This document shows positions 26,317 to 61,245 of a DNA stretch of 64,000 nt, in pieces. A program made the position numbers and the translations under genes. Position 1 is the stretch's first letter. The number at the start of each line of letters is the position of its first letter. The stretch is taken from contig OW240913.1 in assembly GCA_933207985.1 (NCBI GenBank), positions 278,592,436 to 278,656,435 of the forward strand, written 5' to 3'. The notes beneath the pieces are model-generated. The model was not told the DNA's origin. It did no database searches and saw nothing but the letters and a program-made list of their open reading frames with translations. The stretch is from Pelobates cultripes (lineage: Eukaryota > Chordata > Amphibia > Anura > Pelobatidae).

Positions 26317-26757
26317 TTAAAGGGACACTGCAGGCACTATAACCATTACATCACATTGTTTTGGTTATCGTTCCTGGAGTCCTTAGAGCTTTCACTCCAC
26401 TTAGTGTTAAAGGAGTTTAATAATAACTATGGTTCCCTGGTCATCCAAAGCCCAGCTATTATTGGAGGAATTGGTAAGGAAGAGATTGCACACTTTTTTT
26501 TAGCCATACCAATTCATGCCATCAACATGTGTTGTGATAGGCTGAAAGTAGTCAGCTGACACTCAGTTAATCAAAGCATCTCATGTTTAATCATTCTTTA
26601 TTAACCAAAGCAGCACAGAGGCTATGGTTTCCTGGGCACTCTCGCATTAAACCATTAAAAACAGTTTAAAGCTGAATGGAGGGATGGCGCAAGAGGACTT
26701 CAGACACTAACAATCTTCAAAGAGATGAAGCAGTTATAGTGCCTACAGTGTCATTTC
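26317..26757 (+). mobile_element. T2-type MITE, about 440 bp
   Basis: Left end TTAAAGGGACACTGCAGGC; the right end, read in reverse, is AATGACACTGTAGGCACTAT. The inverted ends match over about 25 bp but the outermost TTAA on the right is mutated. The internal block CAACATGTGTTGTGATAGGC...GTCAGCTGACACTC is shared with about 4900. Confidence 0.8.
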
Positions 26758-31721: not shown

Positions 31722-33509
31722 TTTATGGGTTTTGTTTTTTTTGTTTTTTTTAATTTATGTTTTATTGTTTTAGTCAAAGTGGTTCGGGATACAGAAAAGA
31801 AGATAGGAGGGTTAGTTAGACAGGTGTCACTCTCCATGTGACATTAATGGTTACGTAACATTGTATTACAGGCATGCGTGGGATATTTGTTTCATTGTGA
31901 CATTAACGGTTATGCGACATAATACAAATACGTGTTAAACATTGTGGCATTAACGTTCATGAGATAGCATAGTACAGTTTCGTGTGAGACATTCAGTTCA
32001 TTGTCACCTGCACTATGGGTTGTCAGTGGCGTGAGAGAGCATTAGTTGTCTTATAGCGTCTCCCTTCTTCTCAAGGTTCTGGGTGGCATGAGCCTGGTGG
32101 GGAGTCAAGAACCTGAGAGGGGAGCCAAAGGTGACGAAGGGGGGGAGGCTATGGGCGGGTGGGGGGGTGGGGTAGAGAAGGGGAGAGGTGCGTGAGTAAT
32201 ACCTGTGGTCGTTTGATTGGTGTCCTGGCCTGGGGTCAGTATTATGGTGGGGGGAAAGGATAATCCGGGTTATGTTCCTAGTCAGTGCTCTTGGCAGTGT
32301 TTGCCATTGTTTGTGCCCTTTCTTTTGTCCGTCCAAACTCTTTTTCCCATTTACCCCAAGTAGCCTCAAAGTGCATTATTTTTTTCGCGGATGTAATTGC
32401 CATTTTCTCATATATATGAAATTGCTCTACTTTATCCGTAAACTGTGGCAAAGAAGGGCAGTCTTGGGATTTCCAATTAAGTGCTAGGAGATTTCTTGAT
32501 GCCAGTAAGACTAGCGTTATGATTCGTTTTTGGCCTGGGTTTAGGCCTGCAGGGAGCAGTAGCAGTAGGCAAATGGATGCCGTCTGTTCAAATTTTGGGA
32601 TGTCTAGTGTATCTAAGATTGACCTTGTTGTAGTCCAGAGAGGTTTAATGTCTCTACAGGACCACCACAGGTGTAATAGTGTGCCCGGGTCTGATTTGCA
32701 TCTCCAGCACAGCGGGCTCGTCGTGGGAAATAGCTGGTGAAGTCTTTGTGGGGTCATGTACCACCGGTACATGAGTTTCCTTTGGGCTTCTATGTGTGAG
32801 AAGCACTTTGTCCATTTGGACAACCCGTTTAGTACGTGGAGCCACTCTATGTCTGATAGGGCTATGTCACAGTCGTTTTCCCATTGGGCTTTGTGCGGAT
32901 GTGGTTTTGTTGGCGTGAGTTCTTGCCATGTTTTGTAACACAGTGTGAGTGTTTTAGGTTTGTTAGGTGAGGACCAACATCTGTCAATGAGCAACTGTGA
33001 GGTAACCTGTGGTGGGCCTTTTGAGTTGTGTGAGGTTGTCGTGTGTGCTTGTAGGACACTTTTAATCTGTAGGTAGGAAAAGATGGCTCGGCTTGGGAGT
33101 TGCCACTGTGCCTGTAGTGTTGGAAAGGGTGTTACTTTCCCTTCAGTCATCAGTTGGGATATGTGTTTGATCCCTGCTTTGTGCCAGTCTTGGAGTGGTA
33201 TGCCTGGTACGGTTGCTCTGAGGGTCGAAATTGGCGATTTAGGGTGGAAGGAGTTGTTGTAACCTATGGTTCCCATAAATTCATCCCACACTGCTATTGT
33301 GAGCTGGGTGGTTGGGAAGAGATCCTGTCGTTTCAATCTTAGATGCTTGGGTGTCCAGAGATATTCGAGTAGGGCTTGATTACGGAATTGTGCTCTTTCC
33401 ATGTCCACCCATTGGGTCGTGTTAGGTGGTGCATGTAGGAGGACATCGGAGGACAGAATAGCTGCCCTATAGTACTGTTTGAGATTTGGGAGGCCAACAC
33501 CGCCAGAGC
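31722..33509 (-). mobile_element. 5'-truncated L1-type retrotransposon
   Basis: The minus-strand element begins inside ORF2 (SGGVGLPNLKQYYRAAIL, near 33500), runs through a complete ORF2 C-terminus and about 550 bp of 3' region, and ends in a T-rich plus-strand tract at 31723-31757, corresponding to an A-rich tail. No clear target duplication was found. The open reading frame suggests a comparatively young insertion, and one later than its hAT host. Confidence 0.85.
32278..33408 (-). CDS. L1 ORF2p C-terminal fragment, uninterrupted
   Basis: 376 codons without a stop, in frame with about 33 further codons upstream (GGVGLPNLKQYY) that also belong to ORF2p; the listed Met is internal and not a native start. 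Visible features are an acidic/aromatic block after the RT domain (WDEFMGTIGY) and a Cys-rich knuckle at residues 234-251 (CWRC...H....C, spacing CX2C-X8-H-X4-C), the typical C-terminal Cys motif of L1 ORF2p that helps bind RNA. The endonuclease and RT active site are missing through 5' truncation, so no activity is expected. In the wider annotation this is a transposon fragment, not a host gene. Confidence 0.85.
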   Translation of the reverse strand: MDMERAQFRNQALLEYLWTPKHLRLKRQDLFPTTQLTIAVWDEFMGTIGYNNSFHPKSPISTLRATVPGIPLQDWHKAGIKHISQLMTEGKVTPFPTLQAQWQLPSRAIFSYLQIKSVLQAHTTTSHNSKGPPQVTSQLLIDRCWSSPNKPKTLTLCYKTWQELTPTKPHPHKAQWENDCDIALSDIEWLHVLNGLSKWTKCFSHIEAQRKLMYRWYMTPQRLHQLFPTTSPLCWRCKSDPGTLLHLWWSCRDIKPLWTTTRSILDTLDIPKFEQTASICLLLLLPAGLNPGQKRIITLVLLASRNLLALNWKSQDCPSLPQFTDKVEQFHIYEKMAITSAKKIMHFEATWGKWEKEFGRTKERAQTMANTAKSTD

Positions 33510-34196
33510 GTTAGAATGTTTACCACTGCGCAGTAAGCGCACTATTAGATGCTTCTATTTGACTCTCAGATATGAATTGTACCCCACTAATGTACTTTTT
33601 AGCACCCAAAACATTTTACGTTTTAAAACTGCAAAGTGACAGCAGTATTTGACGATTCTGTTTGACTCTCAGATATGAAGTACACCCCACTAATGTACTA
33701 CCCCACTAATGTACTATTTATCAGCAAAATAAAAATTACTTTTTAAAACTCTGATGTAACCGCGGTATTTAAAGCTTCTATTTGATTCTCAGATATGAAG
33801 TGCACCCCACCCCTCTAATGTACTAGTTTGCAGAATTCTTTCCTAAGCTGTCCCTATCAGCGGCAGCATCCTCTGCCTACACTAATAAGACTGCATGTGT
33901 GTACGGCGCTACGCGACTCCAGCTTATATATAGAGGCTGGGTAACATGCTGCACTGGCCAATCACAGTCATGCCATTAGTAGGCATGGCTGTGATGGCTT
34001 CTAAGGGCACACAAGTCAAACCCTTGTTGATTGGCTGCCCTGCAGCCTTTGAAAACAGGCCATTAACTCGCCGAACACCGTACTCCAACCCGAACATACA
34101 GTGATATGTCCGTGTTCTGGTCCGGGGTCCAAAAAACCTAATGTTCGGTACGAACCCGAACTTTTCAGTTCGGGTTCGCTCAACTCTAGTGTCCAT

Positions 34197-41285: not shown

Positions 41286-41406
41286 CCAGCAGTGGCGGAT
41301 CCAGAGCCTGATCTTGGGAGGGGCACTTGTAGATTATTTAAAGAAATAATCCAGACACAATAACCACTACAGCTCAGTGTAGTGGTTATGGTGTCAATAG
41401 TGCCGG

Positions 41407-43080
41407 TGTTCCGTCAGATTGCTATACCTTGTCAGATTGCTATACCGGAAGTGACGCGGCCGCACCGGAAGTGACGCGGCCGCACCGGTAATTTCATTGA
41501 ACAGCTGGAGGAGGAGGAGCGCAGCGCCGCGCATGCGCAGAAGAGCAGGTAGGTAAAATTTACAGGCAGTGAGAGGAGAGGAGGCCGCCTAATGCGCCTG
41601 CGCGAATACAACACTGCGCCTGCGCATGGAGACAAGAGGCGGGGGAGGTAGGGGCCAGTGCGCACGCGCGGCTAAGTACTCCCGTCGGGCACAGACAGCG
41701 GGATACACCGCGCGTGCGCACCAGCGGGCAGGGAGATCGATTCAGCCGAACATTCATCCGATCTCCCTGCCCCACACTGCGCACGCGCCTACCCAGCCAG
41801 GACAGCCACGGACACCGCGCATGCGCACTGAGGGGGTATAGAAATCTGATGGCCATATCTTCTTCTAAGAAATCTCCTACCCCTGAGTGCGCATGCGCGG
41901 TGTCTGATCCACTGCATCCAGACATCCATCAGGTAAGCCTTGCTCCCAACACTCTCAGCCATCAGGGGGGTCTGTGCCTTATTGGGGGGGGGGGGCTGTC
42001 CAGTATTGGGGGGTCTGTGCCTCATTGGGGGGGTCAGTGCCTTATTGTGGGGGGGTCTGCGCAGTATATGGGGGGNNNNNNNNNNNNNNNNNNNNNNNNN
42101 NNNNNNNNNNNNNNNNNNNNNNNNNNNNNNNNNNNNNNNNNNNNNNNNNNNNNNNNNNNNNNNNNNNNNNNNNNNNNNNNNNNNNNNNNNNNNNNNNNNN
42201 NNNNNNNNNNNNNNNNNNNNNNNNNNNNNNNNNNNNNNNNNNNNNNNNNNNNNNNNNNNNNNNNNNNNNNNNNNNNNNNNNNNNNNNNNNNNNNNNNNNN
42301 NNNNNNNNNNNNNNNNNNNNNNNNNNNNNNNNNNNNNNNNNNNNNNNNNNNNNNNNNNNNNNNNNNNNNNNNNNNNNNNNNNNNNNNNNNNNNNNNNNNN
42401 NNNNNATAGAGACAGCCCCCCATATACTGCGCAGACCCCCCCACAATAAGGCACTGACCCCCCCAATGAGGCACAGACCCCCCAATACTGGACAGCCCCC
42501 CCCCCCCAATAAGGCACAGACCCCCCTGATGGCTGAGAGTGTTGGGAGCAAGGCTTACCTGATGGATGTCTGGATGCAGTGGATCAGACACCGCGCATGC
42601 GCACTCAGGGGTAGGAGATTTCTTAGAAGATATGGCCATCAGATTTCTATACCCCCTCAGTGCGCATGCGCGGTGTCCGTGGCTGTCCTGGCTGGGTAGG
42701 CGCGTGCGCAGTGTGGGGCAGGGAGATCGGATGAATGTTCGGCTGAATCGATCTCCCTGCCCGCTGGTGCGCACGCGCGCTGTATCCCGCTGTCTGTGCC
42801 CGACGGGAGTACTTAGCCGCGCGTGCGCACTGGCCCCTACCTCCCCCCCTCTTGTCTCCATGCGCAGGCGCAGTGTTGTATTCGCGCAGGCGCATTAGGC
42901 GGCCTCCTCTCCTCTCACTGCCTGTAAATTTTACCTACCTGCTCTTCTGCGCATGCGCAGCGCTGCGCTCCTCCTCCTCCAGCTGTTCAATGAAATTACC
43001 GGTGCGGCCGCGTCACTTCCGGTGCGGCCGCGTCACTTCCGGTATAGCAATCTGACAAGGTATAGCAATCTGACGGAACA
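41407..43080. mobile_element. Foldback (giant palindrome) element, arms about 670 bp
   Basis: 41407-42075 is the reverse complement of 42406-43080 apart from small indels (for example a 3-bp TCT difference near 41864). It starts TGTTCCGTCAGATTGC and ends with the inverse. CCGG occurs on both sides (41403-41406 and 43081-43084); because CCGG is itself palindromic it may be a 4-bp target duplication or just part of the arms. The arms are CpG-rich and carry repeated CCGGAAGTGACG (ETS-like) and GCGCATGCGC-like (NRF1-like) motifs. No protein domain is visible. The loop lies in the gap. Confidence 0.92.
42076..42405. other. Assembly gap, 330 N
   Basis: The gap sits at the symmetry centre of the foldback, as expected when a hairpin blocks sequencing or assembly. 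The right arm continues 13-14 bases further inward than the left before the gap. Confidence 0.99.
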
Positions 43081-43159
43081 CCGGGACCCCCTCCCACAGT
43101 AAGTAGTCAAACCGTTTTAGAACAGTTTGACAACTTACCTGAGATCTGCTGGGAAATGG

Positions 43160-43860
43160 GGCTGTAGTAGGGCATAGGAGCAGTGGTGTGTGTGAGTGGT
43201 GCAATGTGTAAGGGGTGCAGTGTGTGTGTGAAGGTTGTAGTGTGTGAGTGAGGGCGGCAGTGTATGTCAGGGATGCAGTGTATGTGTGGGACAGTATGTG
43301 TGTGTATGGGGGCAGTGTGTGTGTGTGTATGGGGGAGCAATGTGTGTGTGTGTATGGGGGAGCAATGTGTGTGTGTATGTGGGGGCAGTTTGTGTGTATG
43401 TGGGGGCAGTTTGTGTGTATAGGGGGCAGTTTATGTGTATGGCGGGCAGTTTATGTGTATGGGGGGAAGTGTGTATATGTGGGGCAGTATGTATGTGCAG
43501 TATGTGTGTATGGGGGCAGTGTGTGTGTATGGGGGCAGTGTGTGTGTATGGGGAGAAGTGTGTGTATGGCGGGCAGTTTGTGTATGGCGGGCAGTTTGTG
43601 TGTGTATGTGGGCAGTTGTGTGTATGCGGGCAGTGTGTGTGTATAGGGGCAGTTTGTGTGTATAGGGGGGCAGTTTGTGGGGGGGGGCAGTTTGTGTGAA
43701 TGGGGGGCAGTTTGTGAATGGGGGGCAGTGAATGGGGGCAGTTTGTGTGAATGGGGGGCAGTTTGTGTGTATGGGGGGGCAGTTTGTGTGAATGGGGGGG
43801 CAGTTTGTGTGAATGGGGGGACAGTATTGGGGGCAATATATGTGTGTGTGTGGATTTTTT
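43160..43860 (+). repeat. GT/G-rich minisatellite
   Basis: About 25 units of GTGTGTGTATGGGGGCAGTT type. Apparent 130-190-codon frames on both strands are repeat artefacts. Confidence 0.92.
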
Positions 43861-45984: not shown

Positions 45985-47399
45985 CAGTTGCAAGGAAAAG
46001 TATGTGAACCCTTTGGAATGATATGGATTTCTGCACAAATTGGTCATAAAATGTGATCTGATCATCATCTAAGTCACAACAATAGACAATCACAGTCTGC
46101 TTAAACTAATAACACACAAATAATGAAATATTGCCATGTTTTTATTGAACACACCATGTAAACATTCACAGTGCAGGTGGAAAAAGTATGTGAAACCTTG
46201 GATTTAATAACTGGTTGAACCTCCTTTGGCAGCAATAACTTCAACCAAACGTTTCCTGTAGTTGCAGATCAGACGTGCACAACGGTCAGGAGTAATTCTT
46301 GACCATTCCTTTTTACAGAACTGTTTCAGTTCAGCAATATTCTTGGGATGTCTGGTGTGAATCGCTTTCTTGAGGTCATGCCACAGCATCTCAATAGGGT
46401 TGAGATCAGGACTCTGACTGGGCCACTTCAGAAGGCGTATTTTCTTCTGTTTAAGCCATTCTGGTGTTGATTTACTTCTATGCTTTGGGTCATTGTCCTG
46501 TTGCAACACCCATCTTCTGTTGAGCTTCAGCTGGTAGACAGATGGCCTTAAGTTCTCCTGCAAAATGTCTTGATAAACTTGGGAATTCATTTTTCCTTCG
46601 ATGATAGCAATCCGTCCAGGCCTTGACGCAGCAAAGCAGACCCAAACCATGATGCCCTCACCACCATACTTCACAGTTGGGATGAGGTTTTGATGTTGGT
46701 GTGCTGTGCCTTTTTTTTTGCCACACATAGTGTTGTGTGTTTCTTCCAAACAACTCAACTTTGGTTTCATCTGTCCACAGAATATTTTGCCAGTACTGCT
46801 GCGGAACATCCAGGTGCTCTTGTGCAAACTGTAAACGTGCAGCAATGTTTTGTTTGGACAGCAGTGGCTTCCTCTGTGGTATCCTCCCATGAAATCCATT
46901 CTTGTTTAGCGTTTTACGTATTGTAGATTCGCTAACAGGGATGTTAGCATTTGCCACTTTTATAACCCTTTCCAGTTTATGCAAGTCAACAATTCTTAAT
47001 CGTAGGTCTTCTGAGAGCTCTTTTGTGCGAGGCATCATTCACATCAGGCAATGCTTCTTGTGAAAAGCAAACCCAGAACTGGTGTGTGTTTTGTATAGGG
47101 CAGGGCAGCTGTAACCAACACCTCCAATCTCATCTCATTGATTGGACTCCAGTTGGCTGACATCTCACTCCAATTAGCTCTTGGAGATGTCATTAGTCTA
47201 GGGGTTCACATACTTTTTCCACCTGCACTGTGAATGTTTAAATGGTGTGTTCAATAAAAACATGGCAACATTTCATTCTTTGTGTGTTATTAGTTTAAGC
47301 AGACTGTGATTGTCTATTGTTGTGACTTAGATGATGATCAGATCACATTTTATGACCAATTTGTGCAAAAATCCGTATCATTACTTTTTCTTGCAACTC
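45985..47399 (-). mobile_element. Tc1-type transposon with complete ends
   Basis: 1,415 bp with about 210-bp inverted repeats beginning CAGTTGCAAGGAAAAGTATG on the left; TA flanks at 45983-45984 and 47400-47401. Each terminal repeat has an outer and an inner GGAAAAAGTATGTGAA copy, the IR/DR arrangement that provides paired transposase sites. The transposase gene is on the minus strand and broken. Confidence 0.95.
46204..47038 (-). pseudogene. Tc1 transposase, frameshifted
   Basis: Cut-and-paste DDE transposase. The N-terminal part starts at 47038 ([20 protein letters not shown]) and covers a shortened HTH region that jumps to [17 protein letters not shown], so several tens of residues of the DNA-binding domain are missing. 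The first catalytic Asp is in ILWTDETKVELFG. A frameshift at a 9-base T run (46711-46719) moves the rest into another frame: GIMVWVCFAASRPG, QQDNDPKH (second Asp) and [15 protein letters not shown] (Glu), with exactly 34 residues between the second Asp and the Glu, the DD34E spacing. It ends GGSTSY. Catalytic residues survive but the deletion and frameshift make it inactive. Confidence 0.93.
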
Positions 47400-47424: not shown

Positions 47425-48655
47425 ACACACATTATTATTATTATTATTATTATTGCCATTTATATAGCGCCAACAGATTCCGAAGTGCTTTACAATATTA
47501 TGAGAGGGGGGATTTAACTATAAATAGGACAATTACAAGAAAACTTACAGGAACAATAGGTTGAAGAGGACCCTGCTGAAACGAGCTTACAGTCTATAGG
47601 AGGTGGGGTATAAAACACATTAGGACAGGAAATATCAATAAAATAGAGTGGGAGTGGAGCAGAGCTGGAGGATAGAGTAAAGCACTGCCCTATAGGAGAG
47701 AGCAAGAGACAGGTATGTAAGGTAGAGGTTACTCTGGGAGGCCATAAGCTTTCCTGAAGAGATGGGTTTTAAGGCCCTTCTTAAACGATTGAAGACTAGG
47801 GGAGAGTCTGATGGGGGAAGGCAGGCTATTCCATAGGAAAGGAGCCGCCCGCGAGAAGTCCTGTAAGCGCGAGTTGACCGTACGGGTGCGAGCAGCAGTC
47901 AGGAGGTAGGCATGGAGGTAGGCAGAGCAGAGGGAATGAGGAGGGGCATACCTATGGATCTGTAAAGAGATATAAGAGAAGCTGAATTGTTCAGTGCTTT
48001 AAATGTATGGGTTAGCACTTTGAATTGACTCCTATAGGATACAGGGAGCCAAGGACTGGCAGAGGGGAGAGGTGTGAGAGGACCGACTAGAGAAGAAAAT
48101 CAGTCTGGCAGCGGCATTCATTAAAGACTGTAGCAGGGCAATACGGATTTTGGGGGGAACAATCAGGAGAGGGTTACAGTAATCCATGCGGGAAATTACT
48201 AGAGCGTGGACAAGCTCCTTGGTAGCATCTTGTGTAAGAAAGGGGCGGATGCGAGCTATGTTTTTAAGTTGAAACCTACAGGATTTGGCAACAAACTGGA
48301 TGTGAGGCTCAAAGATGAGGCCAGAGTCAAGTATGACACCAAGACTACACGCTTGCAAGGATGGACTTATGTGGATATCACTGACTTGAAAGGAGAGCGA
48401 GAGAGGAGGATCAGTATTAGGAGGAGAAAAGACAAGGAGTTCAGTTTTAGAGAGATTGAGTTTCAAAAAGCATGAGGACATCCAGTCAGAGATGGTAGAA
48501 AGGCAAGCAGTGATGCATTGCAGGACGGCAGGGGAGAGGTCCGGGGAGGAGAGGTATATCTGAGTGTCATCAGTGTACAGGTGGTAGTGGAATCCAAAAG
48601 AGGCAATAAATTTGCCAAGAGAGGCAGTATAAAGAGAAAATAGAAGGGGAATATA
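47425..48655 (-). mobile_element. 5'-truncated L2-type LINE
   Basis: The minus-strand element runs from the RT domain to a 3' end made of an ATT repeat (47427-47453) preceded by the TATAGCGCCAACAGATTCCG phrase typical of frog L2 3' ends. It lies inside the CATACTGACA minisatellite. The 5' boundary is where the minisatellite resumes. Confidence 0.88.
48032..48650 (-). pseudogene. L2 reverse transcriptase C-terminal half
   Basis: Open for about 200 codons within an [20 protein letters not shown]...[13 protein letters not shown] context, where YTDD is the RT catalytic box (YxDD). Downstream come [55 protein letters not shown] and [13 protein letters not shown], the standard thumb and post-RT blocks of L2/CR1-group LINEs. 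Everything before the catalytic box is missing. The N-terminal Cys/Val/Ser-rich frame extension at 48650-48790 comes from the minisatellite. Confidence 0.9.
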
Positions 48656-49140
48656 CATACTGACACATACACAGAGACATACAGTGACAGATATATACAC
48701 TGACAAACATACTGACACAAACACAGATACATACACTGACAGACAGACACTTACAGATATATACACTGACAAACATACCGACATACACATATACTACTGA
48801 CAGACATATTGGCACACACAGACACATACACAATGACAAACATGCTGACACACATACTGACACAGACACAGATACATTCACTGACAAACATACTGACACA
48901 AACACAGAGACATACACTGACAGACATACTGACACAGACAGGTATATACACTGACAAACATACTGACACAAACACAGATACATACACTGACAGACATACT
49001 GACACAGACAGATATATACACTGACAAACATACTGACATACACATATACTACTGACAGACACACTGGCACACACAGACACATACACTGACAAACATGCTG
49101 ACAGACATACTGACACTAACACAGACATACTGACATAAAT
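48656..49140 (+). repeat. CATACTGACAGACA-type minisatellite
   Basis: Continuation of the array at 45870-45984, split by Tc1 and L2. Units are about 30 bp with ACACTGACA(A/G)ACATACTGACAC themes. Cys/Val/Ser-rich reverse frames are artefacts. Confidence 0.92.
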
Positions 49141-49990
49141 TTGCACTTTTAAACTCACCATCCAGTTTCCTACCTTGACAGGCTAGAAGGGTGGTTTCCC
49201 CGGTGTCCAGTCTGGAGGCTGAGGATGTTGGGAGTTGGGGTCTGTCTCTCAGCCCAGCCCCCCTCCTTCCTGCGTCGTCTGTCTCCCGTGTGTCTCCTTT
49301 CCTTAGTGGGAGGAAGTGACTTGCGCCCTTCACTTCCTCCCAGCGCTGCGGAAAAGCAAGGGGCCCGGCCACGCTGTTAAAATGCCAGAGCGTGTGACCA
49401 AGCCACTGCTTACAAATTCCCACCAGGTGGCCCTTAGTTGATGGACCAGTCAGTGGGCCTCCTTAGTGTGCGGGCCACCGGTTGCATTGGCAGGCCCCTG
49501 GGGGAAAAAAAAAATAGTTGAGGGCAGCAGGGTCCATGGGGCAGCTGCGTTGGACATCCCGAGAGTAACTGGGCCCGGGGTAGCTGCCGTGCTTGCCCTG
49601 TGTTAAAGACAGCCCTGCTCAAACACACACACACACACACACTGCAACCCTCACACACACACACACTGCACCCCTTACACACATGCACACTGCCCCTCTC
49701 ACACACACACTGCACCCTTCGTACACACACACACTGCACCCCTCGTACACACACACACTGCACCCCTCACATACACCACTGCTCCTATGCTCTACTACAG
49801 GCCTTGTCCCCTATTACATCCCCATATCCTGGCAGACCCCAGGTAAGTTGTAAAACTGTTCTTAAATGGTTTGACTACTTACTCTGGGAGGACGTCACGG
49901 CACTCTTGACACCATAATCACTCATGAGAGCTGTAGTGGTTATTGTGCCTGGATTATTTATTTAAATAATCTACAAGTGTCCCTCCCAAA

Positions 49991-52150: not shown

Positions 52151-53369
52151 CAGGTGTTAGAGTGTGTTGGTGGATTCTAGATCACACAGCAGGACTTTGT
52201 ATTTATTTTGTATTGTAATATCATTGATAGCTAGTATAAAACAAAAGATCCATGTAGGCCTGCATCAAGTTTAATTTTACTTATTGTTACAAAACACTAA
52301 TAATGTGTTTAAACATAGAATTGGGAGAATGAAGAGGTGAATAAATCAGTTTAAAGTCAAAGTATTGCAAAACTTAAAAAACCATAAACTTGTTGCATAG
52401 GTTATTGGGTAAGAAGACCCAAGGTCCATGATCTACTTGCAATGACTGTGGTTCTACGATCAGAGCTACTTCTGTCAGAATTCCTTTGACAATTTGGGCA
52501 ACTTGTCTGCCCACGCTGCATCACGGAAGTGAGTGATTTGTATATGTAAAGTTTTAAAAAGCGGTTTGGAAATAAATTAATTAATTAAAAAGTGTTCATT
52601 CTATTAGATCATCTCTTTGTCAGTCAGAAATAAGTTACTGTTAATGATAATATTGTAAAATTGAAACATTCTGGATTTGAAAAGTGATCTTTTGAAATAG
52701 AAAAAAGCTGACACTAAAGTGAATTTCAAATTGAAGGTCAAAATAGCCAAATTGGAAAATTCTCTATCAGCTATGCTTTCCAATCAGCTAATCTGGCCTT
52801 ACATTTTACATATATTTTCAATTCACCTAAAATTCTCACCTTAGTGAACAACCCTAACATTTTAACATGGTGTCCAAAACTCTGTAAAAATAGTTCTAGC
52901 TAAGCTGTCAGAACTTAACTAGCGGCCTTGCCAATATGCAACACTTCCGGGTTCACAGACAATGACACACCCCCTTCTCTGACGCGGCTTCCTCACGCTA
53001 CTTAGAGGAACCGGGCCAGATTCAAAGTGCTTGATTATTTTGAAGCTTCCTGTCTTCTGACCGGCTACAAACTATCTCGCTAATCTACTGAATACGTGTA
53101 CCGAACCTGGACTGTTTAAACCGCTGATCTCCATTCTCCTTACCTTGACTCGGATTACCTTTGGAATACTCTTCTTGTTTAAACCTCCAACTTACGGCAA
53201 GTAAATATTGGACTATCCCTTTCTACTGGCACCTCAATGTCTTTCCGTGCCATATGAGTACTATTAATGGAAAAGCTATCTCTGTAATTCATACATGAAC
53301 TTATCCTCGCAGATTACTCCTCTGCATCCTCTCTGTATTATAATACAAGACGCTAATTCCCACTTGGGT
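52151..53369. other. Non-coding, GC-richer from 52915
   Basis: 52915-53340 has LTR-like or 5'-UTR-like texture (ACTTCCGGGTTC, CTTCCTGTCTTCTGACCGGC) leading into the tandem array. No ends were identified. Confidence 0.4.
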
Positions 53370-53830
53370 TCCTTAAAGCTTCAGGAACTCGTCTTAACGA
53401 ACTACCTTCTTATTGTATTCCTTAAAGCTACAGGAAATCATCTCAACGAACTACCTTCTTATTGTATTCTTCAAAGCTACAGGAACTCTTCTCAACGAAC
53501 TACTTTCTTATTGTATTCTTCAAAGCTACAGGAACTCTTCTCAACGAACTACCTTCTTATTGTATTCTTCAAAGCTACAGGAACATGTCTCAATGAACTA
53601 CCTTCTTATTGTATTCCTTAAAGCTACAGGAACTCGTCTTAACGAACTACCTTCTTACTGCATTCCCTAAAGCTACAGGAACTCTTCTTAATGAACTGCC
53701 TTCTTATTGTATTCCTTAAAGCTACAGGAACTCGTCTCAACGAACTACCTTCTTATATTATTCCTTAAGCTACAGGAACATGTCTCATCAAACTATCTCT
53801 ATATTGTGTTCCTTAAGTCTACAGGAACCT
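53370..53830 (+). repeat. 49-bp tandem array, about 10 units
   Basis: AAAGCTACAGGAAC-type unit starts at 53375, 53424, 53473, 53522, 53571, 53620, 53669 and 53718, then two degraded units near 53766 and 53815. The period is exactly 49 for the first eight. Since 49 is 1 mod 3, a reading frame cycles through all three unit frames; the 108-codon frame at 53295-53621 is open only because the unit lacks stops in each. Confidence 0.95.
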
Positions 53831-59240: not shown

Positions 59241-59931
59241 TCACAGGGAAAGTGCACTGCATCGATAGATGCCCTTCTTTGTGAAAACAACGACGCCAAA
59301 GCGGAAGCGCAAGCCTGGGGCCTACTCCACGCATACACTGCCTGCCCTGGAGGCACTCTTTGGCGGAGCCTACCAAGGCCTCTTCAGCAACCCAACCATC
59401 GGATCCTTTGCCAACCCAGGGACCCACATGCCCACCATGGGGCGACGATCCCAGAAAGCTGGAACCCAGACAGAAGGGTGAGACATTGGGGCCATGCTCC
59501 AGCAGCCTACTAGGCCCAAGCAGGCCTCAGAGGAACGCCAGTCTTCCGCTACCCAAACAGTCCAGGCTGAACAAGCAAAGAGAAACAGACTCCGTACGGC
59601 GCCACCGGCACCCCCAGAGGGATCGCCACCAGCAACAAACCACGACCTGCAAATACTTCTACACGACTTCCACAAAATTCTATCAAAAGAACTAGCAGGA
59701 CTCAAAGCAGACCTACAAAGCACAAAAGACTGAGAGTACAGGCTAACATGGCCGAAGTCTCAACTAACCTAACAAATGTACAAGACTGGGTACATAAGCT
59801 CCAGAAATCTCACCACAACATGGCCTTACACTAGTGATGTCGCGAACATGAAATTGGCTACAAGTGGCTGCTCACTGTAAAGTGGCTGCTCACTGTAAAA
59901 AACAAACAAAAACAAAAAAACCTATTGCCCC

Positions 59932-61160
59932 CACCCCTGTGCGATGGGTGGGGGCCATAAATTACAATGGGGGGGAGGACCTACTGTCCTACCCCCGGCT
60001 CCCACCCCTGGGCGGCAGGTGGGGACCATAAAGATAATGAGGGGCCCCCACCCGTCCTCCCCCCGGCCCCCACCCCTGGGCGGCGGGTGGGGGCCATAAA
60101 GATAATGAGGGGGGGACCTACTGTCCTCCCCCCCCGCCCCCTCCCCTGGGCAGTGGGTGGGGGCCATAAAAATAATGAGGGGGGGGACCTACTGTGCGGT
60201 GGGTGGGGGCAAATAAATCACAATGGGGGGGACCTATTGCCCCCACCCCTGGCCCCCACCCCTGAGCGGCAGATGGGGGCCCTAAATACTAAAAAGGGGG
60301 GGGACCTAATGTCCTCCACCCCGGCCCCCACCTTTGAGCGGCGGGTGGGGGCCCTAAACACTAAAAAGGGGGGGGGACCTAATGTCCTCCCCCCTGGCCC
60401 CCACCCCTGAACGGCGGGTGGGGGCCCTAAATACTAAAAAGGGGGGGACCTAAGGTCCTCCCCCTGGCCCCCACCCCTGAGCGGCGGGTGGGTGCCCTAA
60501 ATACTAAAAGGGGGGGGACCTAATGTCCTCCACCCCGGCCCCCACCCCTGAGCGGTGGGTGGGGGCAAATAAATCACAATGGGGGGACCTAAGGTCCTCC
60601 CCCCTGGCCCCCACCCCTGAGCGGCGGGTGGGGGCCCTAAATACTAAAAAGGGGGGGGACCTAATGTCCTCCCCCCCGGCCTCCACCCCTGAGCGGTGGG
60701 TGGGGGCCCTAAATACTAAAAAGGGGGGGGACCTAATGTCCTCCCCCCCTGCCCCCACCACAAAAAAGGCCAAAATATTTTTACAGGTACTTAGTTAAAG
60801 GTCCCCCCCTCATTATTTTTAGGGTGAGGGGGGTATGTAGGGGGTTAATTTTTTTTGGGGGGGAGGGGGTGACCTTAGGTCCCCCCCCTTTTTAGTATTT
60901 AGGCCCCCCCCGCGCGCTCAGGGGTGGGGGGCAGGGGGAAGGACCTTAGGTCCCCCCCATTGTGATTTATTTGCCCCCACCCACCGCTCAGGGGTGGGGG
61001 CCGGGGGGGAGGACATTAGGCCCCCCTTTTTAGTATTTAGGGCCCCCTCCCGCTGCTCAGGGGAGGGGGCCAGGGGGGGACAGAAGTTCCCCCCTATTGT
61101 TTTTTTTAGGGCCCCCACCCATCGCTCAGGGGTGGGGGTCGGGGGGAGGACAGTAGGTCC
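59932..61160. repeat. Inverted GC-rich minisatellite
   Basis: About a dozen units of roughly 60-75 bp (CCCCACCCCTGAGCGGCGGG...CTAAATACTAAAAAGGGGG...CCTAATGTCCTCC) run in plus orientation to about 60760; after a spacer (60760-60850), about five units run in the opposite orientation. Both halves can pair. Pro/Gly-rich frames across it are artefacts. Confidence 0.93.
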
Positions 61161-61164
61161 CCCC

Positions 61165-61245
61165 CCATATCATTGAGTAAACTTTGACAACCCCCACCCC
61201 CGAGCGGCGGGTGGGAGGGTTGTCAAAGTTTACTCAATGATATGG
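61165..61245. repeat. Perfect 29-bp hairpin
   Basis: 61165-61193 is the exact reverse complement of 61217-61245, with a 23-nt GC-rich loop that is itself part of a minisatellite unit. The GTCAAAGTTTACTCAATGAT arm also occurs once, unpaired, in the 27686 element near 28623. Confidence 0.95.

Follow-up and report, generated by a model that had tools for sequence, protein, structure and literature searches.

A foldback element with clustered NRF1-like sites inserted into a repeat of the spadefoot frog Pelobates cultripes

A foldback element occupies positions 41407-43080 of the window (the whole 64-kb stretch of DNA that was analysed) and consists of two inverted, near-identical arms around a gap of 330 N (Table 1). 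As sequenced, the arms measure 669 nt (left) and 675 nt (right), in keeping with the approximately 670 bp proposed for them by an earlier sequence-only reading, whose bounds coincide exactly with the TGT...ACA element between the two CCGG copies. The arms are 99% identical, differing by two substitutions and two indels (1 and 3 nt) over the left arm's 669 nt. The substitutions, at 41528 and 41708, each lie no more than two bases from a GCGC site, and one of them is a C/T difference at a CpG. From the end inward, the element runs from TGTTCC through two copies of GTCAGATTGCTATACC, a 20-bp repeat containing CCGGAAGTGACG and GCGGCCGC, eight GCGCNNGCGC sites, a splice donor-like sequence and a G-rich minisatellite to the gap. 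Long inverted arms with internal repeats make up most of its length, which places it descriptively in the foldback class, and its mobility is attested by a target-site duplication and an empty site.

Table 1. Features of the foldback element and of its insertion site (positions in the window).
Feature	Positions	Strand	Remarks
Target-site duplication, left copy, CCGG	41403..41406		CCGG on both sides of the element
Left arm (long terminal inverted repeat)	41407..42075	+	TGTTCCG inward to the assembly gap
Subterminal direct repeat	41413..41446	+	GTCAGATTGCTATACC x2, spacing 2 nt; read directly
20-bp tandem repeat, 2.2 copies, ACCGGAAGTGACGCGGCCGC	41444..41488	+	bears ETS-like and TGACG motifs
Cluster of eight GCGCNNGCGC sites, left arm	41529..41898		41529, 41594, 41616, 41660, 41710, 41779, 41817, 41889
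Internal inverted repeats with GCGC sites in stems	41658..41904		41710-41739/41759-41788; 41811-41835/41880-41904; 41658-41671/41708-41721
CAGGTAAG, consensus-like 5' splice site, pointing inward	41930..41937	+	lies 3' of the GCGC sites
G-rich 20-bp minisatellite, (GGGGGGTCTGTGCCTTATTG)n	41965..42075	+	inner arm
Assembly gap	42076..42405		330 N at the palindrome centre; interior unsequenced
Right arm	42406..43080	-	ends CGGAACA; 10 nt deeper into the centre than the left arm
Target-site duplication, right copy, CCGG	43081..43084		exact match to the left copy
Uninterrupted counterpart site, CCGT on the minus strand	49897..49900	-	paralogous host repeat

The interval 41407-43080 is an insertion into a copy of an older, minisatellite-bearing repeat. 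The direct repeat at its two ends is exactly 4 bp, because the adjoining bases differ (G vs A and T vs G). An uninterrupted paralogue of the host repeat lies 6.8 kb from the element: one continuous minus-strand stretch near 49700-49989 is matched by the left flank (41314-41405; 89% over 92 nt) and by the right flank (from 43081; 75% over 201 nt). When the flanks are joined and one CCGG is removed, 35 of 40 bases are identical to the paralogue, where the site reads CCGT. The flanks thus form one repeat with an uninterrupted paralogue, and the palindrome is therefore an insertion and not an assembly fold-over. Minisatellites rich in GT and a short hairpin (ATAACCACTACAGCTCAGTGTAGTGGTTAT) are features of the host repeat, found at 41290-41405, 43085-43840 and 49640-49990 (minus).

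Within the window, the outer arm matches the two arms only (E<=0.01); the other matches at this threshold are internal self-matches, the host repeat, minisatellites and a weak 55-nt match of the left flank at 26317. An exact 26-nt pattern had no match in viral contigs, the arm had none among phages or among plasmids (as expected for a frog element), and Rfam gave 0 matches across the window at the gathering threshold. Comparison of 10 of the 46 listed window ORFs with Pfam returned Tc1-type and reverse-transcriptase domains only, and no other transposase or integrase domain. The former belong to a Tc1-type transposase remnant (46204-47038, minus) in two overlapping frames with DDE_3 and HTH_Tnp_Tc3_2, and the latter to a reverse-transcriptase remnant (48032-48793, minus) in which RVT_1 barely exceeds the cut-off (29.9 vs 29.6 bits). 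A reverse-transcriptase-like ORF (32278-33510, minus) has no Pfam match and five relatives at E<=0.001. These are all Pelobates cultripes proteins, some named reverse transcriptase, as expected of DNA from this frog or a near relative; the best match spans 96% of the query with 60% identity and another 62% with 91%. Tandem arrays lie at 53369-53828 (49-bp unit, 9.4 copies, 88% matches) and at 59927-61166, where the G+C-rich 68-72-bp units have opposite orientations on either side of about 60760-60856.

Motifs in the arms were sought with the usual consensus letters for NRF1, ETS, Sp1, TCTCGCGAGA and the splice donor. Strict NRF1-like sites (GCGCRYGCGC) number six per arm, at the starts listed in Table 1 other than 41594 and 41616; these two fit only the relaxed form GCGCCTGCGC and bring the relaxed total to eight per arm. 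CCGGAAG starts at 41445 and 41465, and CCGGAAGTGACG occurs twice per arm. All six GCGC sites named in the sequence-only reading were recovered no more than 1 nt from the positions given, and its duplicated motif near 41443 and 41463 is the CCGGAAG pair. All 16 occurrences of GCGCNNGCGC in the 64-kb window fall inside the two arms; outside the element the window holds three copies of CCGGAAG/CTTCCGG and three of TGCGCA. GGGCGG and TCTCGCGAGA were looked for in the left arm and are absent.

Only one arm counts in the statistics, because the second arm is a copy. In 2000 dinucleotide-preserving shuffles of the left arm (41404-42075), none matched the observed number of strict sites (6 vs a shuffle mean of 0.01), relaxed sites (8 vs 0.04) or CCGGAAGT (2 vs 0.01), these sites not all being independent since some belong to internal inverted-repeat pairs and the ETS-like pair is one 20-bp tandem duplication. 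Counts of CCGGAAG (matched in 7/2000 shuffles) and TGACG (172/2000) were less striking, as was that of the core CCGGAA. Under the stricter control of Markov models trained on 41407-41950 of the arm (2000 runs), order-2 sequences matched either GCGC count, strict or relaxed, in 1/2000, and order-3 sequences matched the strict count in 7/2000 and the relaxed count in 0/2000. Clustered NRF1-type sites above CpG-matched chance, as expected of an NRF1-driven CpG-island promoter, are thus present. The proposal that motif density exceeds that of CpG-matched sequence holds for the NRF1-like sites and is weaker for the ETS-like ones, because these stem from one tandem duplication and their CCGGAA core was matched in 69/2000 shuffles.

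The likeness among the eight sites extends into their flanks, with a mean identity of 0.423 vs 0.311 at random positions (0/300 as high), to which hairpin-paired sites contribute, and ACAC lies one base from the core in five of the eight. This suggests a repeated unit that is longer than an NRF1 site and specific to the element. Several GCGC sites lie in the stems of internal inverted repeats, of which the pair 41658-41671/41708-41721 was spotted by eye, and the fold of the arm has a z of -5.40, with 0/20 shuffles equally stable. At six of the eight sites, purines and pyrimidines alternate over 11 to 13 bases. The window has 146 alternating runs of at least 10 bases, 12 of them in the element, and none elsewhere has a G+C content of 0.7 or more; because runs with high G+C are confined to the element, Z-DNA formation is possibly another of its properties.

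A search of the translated arm against 5.8 billion proteins gave 62 candidates and one relative among them, P0006 (E 3e-11), a 110-residue predicted protein of Pelobates cultripes whose sequence follows, in two frames, a diverged arm copy; the minus-frame translation gave 13 candidates, 0 of them at E<=0.001. The ungapped core of P0006 matches the window in 49 of 50 residues at 41653-41802 and in 28 of 30 at 41816-41905, this core having been chosen by the analyst; residues 1-22 (weakly aligned, E 0.003) and the gapped last eight lie outside it. The change of frame implies an indel relative to the window copy, and since P0006 differs from both arms it represents another copy. The claim that the palindrome is mobile is therefore backed by the CCGG duplication, the uninterrupted paralogue and this second, diverged arm copy. 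Within the core, all 20 residues that overlap its five GCGC sites are kept; of the remaining 60 residues 57 are, so the contrast is too slight to demonstrate selection. The second copy is known via the predicted protein only, and kept residues do not prove kept nucleotides. In the weakly aligned start, the 41616 site is compatible with residues APA, and the 41594 site may be altered or lost, being ambiguous because the window reads MRLRE and P0006 begins MRE. The last codon of P0006 directly precedes the GT of CAGGTAAG, as would be expected if this donor were in use; the loss of one base, creating a stop codon, would give the same picture.

With its 4-bp direct repeat and near-identical arms, and with part of the arm present in a second, diverged copy, the insertion is best explained, on a balance tipping modestly in favour, as a recently inserted, non-autonomous cut-and-paste DNA transposon with very long terminal inverted repeats, moved by a Ginger1-like integrase-type transposase. 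Such a transposase would be made elsewhere and would mobilise the element through its arms, whose tandem and palindromic GCGC repeats may be subterminal binding sites. Transposases commonly bind repeated subterminal motifs, and because the flanks are shared beyond the NRF1 motif, the GCGC sites may be transposase-binding repeats besides or instead of promoter elements. The arms themselves, CpG-rich and NRF1/ETS-like upstream of a splice donor that points inward, may be derived from an autonomous parent's promoter and first exon.

A substantial, though lesser, probability belongs to a superfamily other than Ginger1: a foldback DNA transposon that makes a 2-bp CG or another 4-bp duplication and resembles Ginger1 by chance. 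The terminal TGTNR and the arm length of Ginger1 are not matched, and at this single site a CG duplication gives an identical empty site, so that CCGG and CG duplications are inseparable from one insertion. A CG duplication would, however, make the matching outer C and G a coincidence, and TGT...ACA together with CCGG is a specific combination. Another source of the ends, of the 4-bp duplication and of the downstream splice donor would be a pair of retroviral-type LTRs in head-to-head orientation that an integrase inserted by way of two identical ends; this is very unlikely, as inspection by eye beside the donor revealed neither an LTR end nor a primer-binding site nor any coding remnant, and the two ends are identical across the whole arm. 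Hardly any probability attaches to an assembly artefact from a folded or duplicated read. The gap at the centre and the 99% identity of the arms are what such a fold would leave, but the symmetry ends at CCGG (plus chance matches), the differing flanks together rebuild an uninterrupted paralogue, the arms differ at four places, and a separate diverged copy exists.

The transposon explanation is compatible with a further reading, in which the arms would be working NRF1/ETS-driven CpG-island promoters and each insertion would seed a bidirectional, possibly unmethylated promoter. Promoter activity of the arms is plausible, and the full reading is rather unlikely. The density of NRF1-like sites above CpG-matched controls speaks for it, as does a CpG observed/expected ratio of 0.96 at 41404-41950 and 0.79 for the arm as a whole up to the gap, compared with 0.36 for the window without the element; the ratio nevertheless falls to 0.63 once the sites are masked, and the youth of the insertion could by itself explain undecayed CpGs. 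In its well-aligned part, P0006 retains the residues at all five sites, but not clearly better than its other residues. The position of CAGGTAAG, 3' of the sites and exactly where P0006 stops, also speaks for the reading; against it, GGGCGG and TCTCGCGAGA are missing, and the sites share flanks that NRF1 does not need. In the available parts of the sources, methylation prevents NRF1 from binding, and in mouse cells that have lost it IAP elements account for about 14% of NRF1 peaks, as against a negligible share otherwise (PMC9729108, PMC7236515), which makes the promoter idea reasonable because NRF1 can occupy a mobile element where methylation is absent. IAP is a mobile element that NRF1 occupies in the unmethylated state, as it might occupy the present element, and differs in being a mouse LTR retrotransposon and not a palindromic DNA element (PMC7236515, as far as available).

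More speculative, and improbable as a whole, is a spadefoot-frog family of palindromic, integrase-moved elements that would disperse NRF1/ETS promoters resistant to methylation and furnished with an inward splice donor; some copies would already have been captured as gene starts, of which P0006 may be one. Should copies be numerous and unmethylated, they would offer a route for spreading promoters and a natural experiment on whether a high density of NRF1/ETS sites is enough to create a CpG island in a vertebrate genome that is methylated.

The suggestion that no described family is like this element stands in so far as, among the matches listed in the literature searched, no title or opening of an abstract points to an element of this kind; the ends, however, resemble the known Ginger1 superfamily. 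According to the part of Bao et al. (2010) available (PMC2836005), Ginger1 elements duplicate CCGG (75%) or CCGT/ACGG (24%), have ends of the form TGTNR and terminal inverted repeats of about 40-270 bp, and include non-autonomous copies. The present element shares with them the 4-bp CCGG duplication (at one site), the TGT...ACA ends and a presumably non-autonomous make-up, but its 5' end reads TGTTC, with C and not R as the fifth base, and its arms of at least 669 nt exceed the 40-270 bp range, possibly through secondary expansion. In the same part of that source, the animals named in the Ginger1 section are hydra, Aplysia, lancelet and aphid; vertebrates come up solely through their host genes Gin-1 and Gin-2 (PMC2836005). 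If the ends are truly Ginger1-like, they would point to recent Ginger1-type mobility in a frog, set against a vertebrate record that in the portion of the source available consists of derived host genes only. Because neither the arm length nor the fifth base of the ends agrees, and because the ORFs compared showed no transposase of the Gypsy-integrase-like kind that marks Ginger1, membership of Ginger1 is not claimed, and the element is described as probably working like a Ginger1-type non-autonomous element. Long inverted arms with internal repeats also mark the foldback elements Galileo and Tetris, whose duplication lengths are unlike that of the CCGG element. Both are insect elements, from Drosophila. 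Galileo is assigned to the P superfamily in the available parts of the sources (PMC4168063, PMC4079207).
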